From Branchiostoma floridae (taxonomy: Eukaryota > Chordata > Leptocardii > Amphioxiformes > Branchiostomatidae), in NCBI RefSeq assembly GCF_000003815.2, contig NC_049992.1:7402493-7466492 (forward strand): DNA of 64,000 nucleotides, in the 5' to 3' direction. The notes under the pieces were generated by a model. That model did not search any database, was not told where the DNA came from, and worked only from the letters and a program-made list of their open reading frames with translations. A program made the translations under genes and the position numbers. This document shows, in pieces, positions 858 to 3,800 of this stretch. Within the stretch, counting starts at the first letter, position 1, and each line of letters starts with the position of its first letter.

Positions 858-3800
858 CTCCTGGTGCGAAGCGTCCTTGCCAATGATTTTGCAGCTCCCA
901 GCTACAGACTGCTGGGATGGTTGTCAGCGGTACAGTTAGGGTTCAGTCTACTGCAACATGTGCACAGGACATTCTCTGGGGGCAGGTCGGGGCAAGGCCT
1001 TGACAGAGAGACAACCTCAGAACACAGGTATGCATGTATGTCTATCTGTTAGTTAGTTACCTTCACCATGCAGAATTTCCTTTTGGTTGTCTGTGTGTGC
1101 CTGTGTGTGTGCGTATGGGTGTGTCTGTGTGTGTGTGTGTGTGTGTGTGCATATGTGTGTGTCTGTCTGTGTGTGCCTGTGTGTGTGCATATGTGTGTGT
1201 CTGTGTGTGTCTGTGTGTGTGTGTGTGTGACTGTGTGTGTGTGTGTGACTCTGTGTGTGTGTGTGTGTGTCTGTGTGTGTGTCTGTGCCTGTGTGTGTGT
1301 GTGTGTCTGTGTGTGTGTGTGTGTGTGTCAAGAATCTATTCACAGAATTACATGTAATTCAAGGCTGAAATTTATTGCAATTAAAAGGAAATGGACAAAA
1401 AATGATAAACGCACGGATGTCAGCCATCTTATCAAATCAATATGGCCATACTTTAGTATACTTTTCTCTTGAAAAGTTGAAAAATCACATTGTTCTACTT
1501 ATTTGACAGTAACAACTATGAACAAGTCATCATAAATCACCAAGTTTCCATCTTACATTCTACAAAATTATCATCTTTTATGATGTGACCTCCTGTCATT
1601 TCATGGTTCTCCTAGAAACTAGATCAATTAGTTGAAGAGGTTCATCAGTCATGTATGCAAACAGTTACAACAAATTTTCTCAATCAATGACTGTTTTTGA
1701 AAAGGTACAGGACATACCTCCCACATTTTCGATGTCGACCAGTACAACCGCGTGACGGGGAAGACAAAATCTCAGTTCTCGCGAGAGAACACGAGACTAG
1801 GTCAGGCTTGCGTNNNNNNNNNNNNNNNNNNNNNNNNNNNNNNNNNNNNNNNNNNNNNNNNNNNNNNNNNNNNNNNNNNNNNNNNNNNNNNNNNNNNNNN
1901 NNNNNNNNNNNNNAGAACCAGGTAGAGCAGTCCCACAGTCATTGATTGATGAAATTTGTTGTAACTAGATCAATTAGGAATTTTCATTTCTCTGTTTTAG
2001 TTCTTCCAAATCTTCTTTGGCTGGTAAATCTTTGTCGGCGCCGTCACACTTTTCTGAGTCTTCTGTGATCTCTTCTTCAATAGTATCAAGTGTAACAACA
2101 CCAGATGTCCCAGGTTTACACCTGTTTGTGCTAGTTGACACGCCTGCACAGCCAATCATTTCATAAGCAGTCTGCTCTTGATGGACAGACTCTATGGTAG
2201 GCGAACTCTTGATTTTAGACCCAACACAATCCACTGTCTCTTGACCTCTCTTGTAAAGTGAAGTATTTCTTCTAACATTTCTACTTATGGGCAGATGTAC
2301 TTCAGCTCTTGTGGTATGAAATTTTGAGGAGTACTTGTTCCTGTCTTCACATCTTTTGTTTTGTGATCCCTGCCCACAAGTATTTGCAATGCCTTTGTCG
2401 TTTGTTCCTCTGTGTGGAGGTGCACAAAGTGCATTTGACGTTGGTTTACCTTTGGTGTCTTCTTCTTTTATTTCACTGTAGTGGTTACCAGATGGAACAT
2501 ACACTTCATCCTCGTTTATTTGATTGTAGACGTTGTCGTTTTTTTGACCCGTGTTTAACACTAAGTCTTGTTCCTGTTTGCCACAGGCATGCTCGTCTTT
2601 TATTTTGCAGTAGTGGTGACCAGATGGGATGTACACTTCATCCTCCTTTATTTGATCGTAGTTGTTGTCGTTTGTTCGACCTCTGTTTGATACCTGTTCC
2701 TCTTTATCACAGCCATGCTCATCTTTTATTTCGTAGTAGTGGTGCCCAGATGGAACGTACACTTCAGCCTCATTTATTTCATCATAGGCAATTCCTCTCC
2801 GTTGCACTGCTGCATCATTATCATAGTTGCTTTCATGATTGTTATCATTTCCACTGTTCTCACCGAGGCAAAAGAAAGCGACACGTACACAACATATAAT
2901 GATAACTTGGACTGCCACTACGGAGCCTACTATCAGAGGTATCCTTAGATTTGTATTTGTTTTTTCAGTAGTGGCATTGATGAGAGAAAAAGACATTGGG
3001 TTCTGTATCAACGAGGTTGTTTTTTCTGGTGTCTCTGCTTTACCATCTATGTTGTCAGCACTAGTAAGAGAGTCGTTGTTATACACTGCAGTTTTTTCTA
3101 CCCCATTCCTAACCCTATCCTTCAGAAAACAATTTGTTTCCTCTGCTTGCTTTGGTGTCGATGCATTAATATAGAAAATGTGTTTATGATCATAGATGAC
3201 ATAAAAGCAGGCCACCCTGGACACATTAGGATTCCTACCATGATCCTCGACCTTGTCTGTAGTACTTTGAAATTCTGCTGTTTTATTTTTCGTAGTAGTG
3301 GCTACGATACTAAAAGCGTCCACTTTTGAGGAACCTGGGTTACTACTGTTTCCTAGTCCAAAGACTCGCAGGTTAGATGCACCCTTTAAGGGAAAAGTGA
3401 TACCCTCAGAGTCTTCCCATGACTCGAAACATTGAGTCGAAAATGACCTGTCCTGAGGGCTTTTGCTATGCTTTGCTATAACGACGAAGGGAGAGTAAGA
3501 CATAAAATGACCCAAACGATAAATCTCTTGGAGTGGATTACAAGAATCCAGATTAATTGGGACTTTTGCCTTGAATTTTGCCATGCTGTACCAATCAACA
3601 GAGAATAAGTCCGTGGAGGGTTCATAGTTGATGTGAAAGACCATACCGTCAACCTCCAATCGTATCCACTGGTGATTACTCTGTTCAGTGTTGTACCAAG
3701 GAGTTTCGATCAAATCTTCGTTAAGGCCACAATTTTCTACCACAACGTGCCATGCCATTTCATGCACAGTATCTGACTTTAAGGCAACAAGCTTGTTTCC

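Follow-up and report, generated by a model that had tools for sequence, protein, structure and literature searches.

Can a lancelet carry recognition by leucine-rich repeats (LRRs) and signalling through repeated tyrosine pairs on one and the same chain? The question is raised by a gene on the minus strand of a 64,000-nucleotide stretch of Branchiostoma floridae DNA (assembly GCF_000003815.2, contig NC_049992.1, positions 7,402,493 to 7,466,492; referred to here as the window, with positions counted from its first letter). The original prediction, made from the letters of the window, had described the product as an LRR receptor with one membrane span and a tail containing three tandem units spaced as in immunoreceptor tyrosine-based activation motifs (ITAMs), possibly an unrecorded design. 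The combination of an LRR recognition part with repeated tyrosine pairs on one chain is supported, and the pattern is kept across a gene family. By its sequence, the window gene belongs to a large germline-encoded family of amphioxus LRR receptors, most of them intronless, and the predicted tail is likely to be a tyrosine-based signalling module. We consider it rather probable that these are self-contained LRR receptors, which signal in an ITAM-like manner via clustered phosphotyrosines and are probably driven by Src kinases.

A single-exon receptor gene with three tyrosine cassettes

The coding sequence (1974..4604, minus strand) is a single exon encoding 876 amino acids from MNSRLLF, with a 100% self-match in the genome. 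It lies in a frame that is open without interruption from 1974 to 4634 on the minus strand and is complete in the germline. An upstream in-frame methionine at 4619 would give a protein of 881 amino acids, which explains why the residue numbers first proposed were higher by five. The hydrophobic N-terminus, a putative signal peptide judged by eye, is followed by LRRs at residues ~117–273 (3786..4256, minus strand; Pfam LRR_8, 2.3e-36) and by the only strong hydrophobic span in the hydropathy profile, at residues ~557–577 (2874..2936, minus strand), so that the protein has the features of an LRR receptor. Hence, the LRR ectodomain and the single span both hold. The PDB relatives of the LRRs listed by phmmer are general LRR proteins, including chains of IGFALS, LGR4/5 and TLR3. 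Between the LRRs and the span lies a membrane-proximal ectodomain with conserved cysteines (residues ~279–501; 3102..3770, minus strand), which is common to the family and has 10 invariant columns in an alignment of 14 members. A profile of this domain gave no PDB match at E<=5, and its best Pfam match, at E 0.1, is far under the cut-off. The AlphaFold model of the ectodomain, built from one sequence, has a mean predicted local distance difference test score of 31 and is too poor for a fold search. Beyond the span, residues 578–876 (1977..2873, minus strand) would form a cytoplasmic tail of ~300 residues.

Three cassettes are found in the predicted tail, at 2727..2786 (residues 607–626), 2601..2660 (residues 649–668) and 2469..2528 (residues 693–712), all on the minus strand. 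Each contains a YxxI pair (Y607/Y623, Y649/Y665 and Y693/Y709) with 12 residues between the motifs, and the three tandem units with identical spacing are thus present as proposed. Each unit also contains a third tyrosine that had been missed (Y616, Y658 and Y702), which lies within VY[VI]PSG. The consensus is a three-tyrosine unit that starts with Y[ND] and ends, roughly, with [SC]EI-KDED. A profile of the cassette gave a single match in PDB, at E 5.7. When the last 276 residues were shuffled 100,000 times, three YxxL/I pairs arose in 3 of the shuffled sequences, even with any spacing of 6–12 allowed. At the DNA level, the three cassettes are one tandem repeat with steps of 132 and 126 nucleotides and identities of 78% and 62% to the reference copy; hence, they do not represent three independent events, and independent evidence has to come from other genes. 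The repeat structure also fits an explanation in which the units arose by recent tandem duplication, serve no function and drift as a simple repeat, and the relatives of the gene bear directly on this.

The receptor family and the constraint on its cassettes

A search of the genome (513,431,437 bases in 431 contigs) with the full-length protein gave at least 67 matches at E<=0.001, several per gene; this search scores the best candidates only, and the count is therefore a lower bound. The weakest match covering the LRRs has an E-value of 9.5e-34. Fifty distinct receptors with an LRR-type ectodomain, a span and a tail were recognised, nearly all of them intronless and encoded in a single open frame; L046 is disrupted and looks frameshifted, and L009, L029, L033 and L053 contain runs of N. 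These 50 proteins are the basis of the tree and of all counts. Left out were L020, which is the same gene as the fuller L053; the short frames L042 and L044, in which span and tail are missing; the second of the two frames in each of L033 and L046; and the gene of L006 as read a second time in L053. A frame of 2054 residues around L020 (L054, C19:12690491-12696652) was rejected as an artefact of runs of N, which occupy ~1035 residues upstream of the gene and a further stretch inside it.

The tails were assigned by eye to four types, A to D, before the ectodomain tree was made. Type A comprises 31 genes, including the window gene, and is defined by the three-tyrosine cassette, present in up to five copies and degenerate or shortened in L009, L013, L014, L018 and L024. 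The survey of other LRR genes for the same tail, which the original prediction had called for, thus places 31 of the 50 receptors compared in type A. Types B, C and D comprise 4, 12 and 3 genes, respectively. The spacing of the YxxI sites peaks at a single value in each subfamily. In a maximum-likelihood tree of the ectodomains alone, each tail type falls on one side of a branch with 99–100% support (the root is unknown), and tail type therefore follows the ectodomain tree. A search of the genome with the tail of one receptor gave 48 matches, and all 46 of those with E<=0.28 lie in family genes or in three new frames; a match at E 0.60, which contains stops, was left unread. The new frames, L075, L076 and L077, came to light once the tree was complete and enter no count; each has a span, cassettes and, as judged by eye, sequence like that of the membrane-proximal domain, with no LRR part within the frame. 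No cassette attached to another type of ectodomain was seen in this search with its single query tail.

Some tails contain further repeats. Seven type-C tails (L037, L040, L041, L043, L045, L048 and L052) have several copies of a second long module, AEVxLPSSTRLGGKHPSYDTAPQVWRDPQNYQIPARGR ... YMGL-like, part of which resembles the FYAATAEV..SLY motif of type A, and the tail of L052 has seven YxxI units. In L026, L027 and L028, arrays of PGTSENVT-like repeats follow the cassette in the predicted cytoplasmic part.

The paralogues are the decisive evidence that the tyrosine pattern is real. Exact YxxI-x12-YxxI units occur 38 times in 24 of the 31 type-A genes, whereas none of 2000 shuffles of the tails produced more than 2, and a chance origin of the pairs is thus rejected both for the window tail and for the type-A tails; the 38 pairs are not independent, however, because the type-A genes share descent. 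When all YxxL/I pairs in the 6–12 range are counted in these 31 tails, 39 are found, 38 at a spacing of 12 and one, in L024, at 8. Conservation was read from a full-length alignment of 29 type-A members (L001–L030 without L020), in the making of which the motif was not used. In the last cassette, the first, middle and final tyrosines are conserved in 26, 23 and 29 of the 29 members, respectively, and the final one is part of a YxxI in 27. The last site of the cassette, Y[SC]EI, is therefore its most constant one. Outside the cassettes, and with misaligned rows omitted (L001 at the upstream column; L019 or L030 at the downstream ones), 22 of 24 members, the window gene not counted, have retained an upstream tyrosine in a context like LQSNPMY, though not always with the NP; the downstream tyrosines of FYAATAEV, SLY and TAYEM are retained in 20/25, 25/26 and 18/22, respectively. 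The seven tail columns with a tyrosine majority, four of which include one or two misaligned rows, have a mean conservation of 0.88; the mean over the 168 tail columns in which 20 or more residues are present is 0.50. Tyrosines thereby rank first among the best-conserved columns of the tail.

Substitution rates point in the same direction. Over eight paralogue pairs with no gene in common, the pooled ratio of nonsynonymous to synonymous rates (dN/dS) is lowest in the cassettes, at 0.26; the ectodomain has 0.49 and the remainder of the tail 0.62. Between close pairs, cassette tyrosines have changed in 2 of 34 comparisons and other cassette positions in 31 of 237. Drift of a functionless repeat is hardly credible in the face of this constraint: the window gene's units are indeed one duplicated DNA repeat, but the same cassette recurs, in up to five copies, in relatives that share ~36% identity over the ectodomain (median pairwise value 0.36).

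Possible docking codes and candidate partners

In its wide definition, an ITAM consists of two YxxL/I motifs 6–12 residues apart, and the canonical spacing is 6–8. All three units of the window gene, and at least one pair in 24 of 31 type-A genes, fall within the wide rule, each time at its upper edge, 12, which lies outside the canonical range. An acidic residue at position -3 of the first tyrosine is another feature of ITAMs; D or E is found there in 25 of 38 type-A cassettes, including two of the three in the window gene. No match to the Pfam ITAM profile (PF02189, E<=10) was reported for any of four cassette peptides of type A (three from the window gene, one from L003) or for the stretch of L024 with spacing 8, in a search whose HMMER filters drop weak matches, while the controls were recognised (CD3-zeta at 3.5e-21 over three stretches, a one-ITAM peptide at 1e-05).

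Possible partners were sought with an SH2 scan of the genome, which gave 66 matches, of which 20 short stretches were extracted and read. Two exons 1.3 kb apart on contig C15 encode an N-SH2 domain (SYK 8.7e-42, ZAP-70 2.8e-38) and a C-SH2 domain (SYK 1.8e-10, ZAP-70 1.7e-7); by these two exons, the genome encodes a predicted tandem SH2 protein of the Syk/ZAP-70 type. An exon on contig C14 has the N-SH2 domain of SHP2 as its best match (1.2e-33, with both SH2 domains of the chain contributing to the score).

These exons would provide the partner for a strict ITAM, in which the two YxxI sites of each cassette are bound together by the amphioxus Syk/ZAP-70 tandem SH2 and the receptor is activating. 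The pairs within the wide range and their acidic residues agree with such a mechanism. So do the ends of the cassette, which resemble the second ITAM of CD3-zeta (YNEL-x8-YSEI), and L024, where YDQI-x8-YSEI falls in the canonical spacing. Against it stand the spacing of 12 and the additional, conserved middle tyrosine in type A, the spacings of mostly 13 and 17 in the sister subfamilies, the negative Pfam result, L024 included, and three genes (L009, L013 and L018) that have lost or altered the first YxxI yet keep the last YC[ED]I. An activating Syk ITAM is thus possible, though on the doubtful side, and inhibition, a Src-family dock and sorting are real rivals to it. The triple ITAM originally proposed survives as a spacing pattern within the wide rule, in a genome with a Syk/ZAP-70-type tandem SH2, and not as a match reported by the Pfam ITAM profile.

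The simplest function common to all four tail types would be a dock for Src-family kinases. pY-E-E-I is the classic ligand of Src-family SH2 domains and RPLPPLP a ligand of the Src SH3 domain, and the Y[SC]EI site recalls the former. A Yx[ED]I site is found in 27/31 type-A, 4/4 type-B, 12/12 type-C and 3/3 type-D genes (46 of 50 in all), and all three type-D tails (L049, L050 and L051) have an RPLPxxP element alongside their YxxI sites, which suggests a combined dock for Src SH2 and SH3 domains. The fixed pair of type A may then be an added option for a tandem SH2 protein, beside the Src-family dock.

Hence, we hypothesize that in this family the LRRs and the family-specific membrane-proximal domain would bind a ligand outside the cell, and that the long inner tail would act as a multi-site phosphotyrosine dock. 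Clustering of the receptor would recruit a Src-family kinase, which would phosphorylate the tyrosines of the cassettes. SH2 domains of the Src-family type would then be held at the near-constant Y[SC]EI sites, and the paired YxxI sites could take a tandem-SH2 protein such as Syk. The net effect, with a presumed immune output, would be a receptor acting in the manner of an ITAM receptor, in which a new three-tyrosine cassette takes the place of the standard ITAM.

A phosphorylated tail could also inhibit. The 699-residue receptor BbLcLRR of Branchiostoma belcheri, an LRR-transmembrane protein expressed in the gut, co-precipitated with and was phosphorylated by the amphioxus homologue of Lck; in Jurkat cells, it inhibited activation via three tyrosines and bound SHIP1 and SHP1/2 after stimulation (PMC8211107). 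If the present family is similar, its phosphorylated tails would recruit phosphatases of the SHP2 or SHIP type and damp gut immune cells, and the SHP2-type SH2 found in the genome is consistent with this. The YxxI sites are shared with receptors containing immunoreceptor tyrosine-based inhibitory motifs (ITIMs), [I/V/L]xYxx[I/L/V], but the required residue at -2 is found in 2 of 105 type-A sites and in none of the 106 sites of types B–D; with S or T also counted, the numbers are 10/105 and 3/106, respectively. The ITIM consensus, being nearly absent, was rejected, and we regard an inhibitory role of the BbLcLRR kind as unlikely.

As a further alternative, the tails could serve trafficking without any phosphotyrosine signalling, with YxxI as sorting signals of the AP-2 type and NPxY as endocytic or phosphotyrosine-binding (PTB) domain sites. 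YxxI fits the YxxPhi rule for such signals, a strict NPxY is found in 16/31 type-A and 4/4 type-B tails, and the aligned upstream tyrosine is as well kept as described above. However, conservation extends to the residues that separate and follow the YxxI sites, far more than YxxPhi requires, the middle tyrosine, VYDPS, is without a bulky residue at +3 and yet kept in 23 of 29 members, and the spacing has one peak per subfamily. Pure trafficking is therefore quite improbable.

Several observations weigh against ITAM-like phosphotyrosine signalling as the common role of the family. Dense YxxI and NPxY motifs can also be sorting signals. The three smaller subfamilies depart from the type-A cassette: type B carries YCEIKDEDVYDPTRTHTYSEI at a spacing of 13, type C YWEIPDEYYNYYNTRPGAQHP repeats at a spacing of mostly 17, and type D YSEIPDHVAAAQRPLPETPHTYWQI at a spacing of 17. 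Within type A, seven of the 31 genes are without an exact pair; L009, L013 and L018 retain the last YC[ED]I and have lost or altered the first site, L014 has both sites altered, L019 and L031 have the last site altered, and L024 has its pair at 8. The window gene itself is without an NPxY and without the first tyrosine of the FYAATAEV motif. The dN/dS of the cassettes is based on 132 synonymous sites. Between close pairs, tail tyrosines outside the cassettes have changed in 12 of 47 comparisons and other tail residues outside them in 352 of 1490, that is, equally often, which means that the cassette tyrosines are the only ones to stand out on a short time scale. Finally, the candidate exon for a Src-family SH2 is ambiguous, since it matches SHP2 (5.2e-17) better than Src-family kinases (best 4.1e-12).

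Comparison with known receptors and further features of the locus

Vertebrate ITAM chains such as CD3-zeta, FcR-gamma and Ig-alpha/beta share with the family the repeated YxxL/I pairs in the tail, the acidic -3 residue in most cassettes and Syk-type SH2 exons in the genome, and the family differs from them in its spacing of 12 rather than 6–8, its inner third tyrosine, its ectodomain on the same chain and the lack of a reported Pfam ITAM match. Toll-like receptors and variable lymphocyte receptors (VLRs) or VLR-like proteins also have extracellular LRRs. In contrast to these, the window receptor has a long tyrosine tail and a complete germline frame. A Toll-like receptor was rejected, as Pfam at E<=1 gave no TIR domain in the window protein. 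The germline gene of a VLR is incomplete and is assembled from LRR cassettes; a VLR-like assembly was likewise rejected for the window gene on account of its complete frame.

The closest published counterpart is BbLcLRR, which, like the window receptor, is an amphioxus protein with an LRR ectodomain, one span and a tail with several tyrosines, shown to be functional in BbLcLRR. Its sites are DDYATV, HDYSEV and HDYDDP, and HDYSEV resembles the GHDYSEI/GHDYCEI of the family, a likeness at the level of the published motif. In contrast to the window protein, its span lies at 456–478 rather than at ~557–577, a WSC domain is predicted, and the sites are described singly as ITIM or ITIM-like, with no repeated cassette in the accessible part of the description (PMC8211107). 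FrLRR of B. belcheri, an LRR membrane protein found via a signalling bait, is unlike the window receptor in having a predicted glycosylphosphatidylinositol (GPI) anchor and no cytoplasmic tail (PMC10199209). A third report discusses other receptor types, and the term 'itam' is absent from the part of its text that was available (PMC2575513). A term search of a fourth paper gave no hit (PMC4731796). No recognised description of the receptor family or its cassette was found in the open-licence literature searched. The design was thus not entirely unrecorded, given that a Lck-phosphorylated amphioxus LRR receptor was published in 2021, although the search results showed no account of the cassette family.

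This comparison suggests that BbLcLRR may exemplify a wider class, some members of which could activate rather than inhibit. More tentatively, and with less than even confidence, it can be proposed that a lineage without antigen receptors evolved a large germline repertoire of LRR receptors with ITAM-like cassettes on the same chain, feeding Src-family and Syk-type kinases, and subfamilies with other docking codes, namely YxEI repeats at 13 or 17 and YxEI combined with RPLPxxP as a would-be two-handed Src SH2/SH3 dock. If true, LRRs would have been the basis on which a signalling logic resembling that of antigen receptors arose outside vertebrates. The question addressed is how receptor-proximal Src/Syk signalling originated before antigen receptors, and the family offers a direct test, with dozens of natural receptors in which a defined cassette is repeated and under strong constraint, and a genome that contains Syk/ZAP-70-type SH2 sequences.

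The remaining features of the window gene's tail are a second motif at 2253..2321 (minus strand; family form FYAATAEVxLPTT...SLY), the first tyrosine of which is a histidine here, and a lone YEMI at residues 814–817 (2154..2165, minus strand; family form EQTAYEM). At the stop codon or 3' untranslated region of the receptor lies a small, mobile-element-like insert (1617–1977), in which a 15-nucleotide direct repeat (1617–1631 and 1963–1977) flanks 32-nucleotide inverted arms (1663–1694 and 1935–1966) and a gap of 100 N. Beyond the insert, as seen from the gene, there is a long GT-rich array at 1090–1330. Elsewhere in the window, exon-like frames at 16031–16600 (minus strand), 22960–23250 (plus strand) and 24721–24996 (plus strand) were seen among ten frames scanned; EGF/cEGF domains and a thrombospondin type 1 repeat are encoded there, and one frame has a single hydrophobic span.

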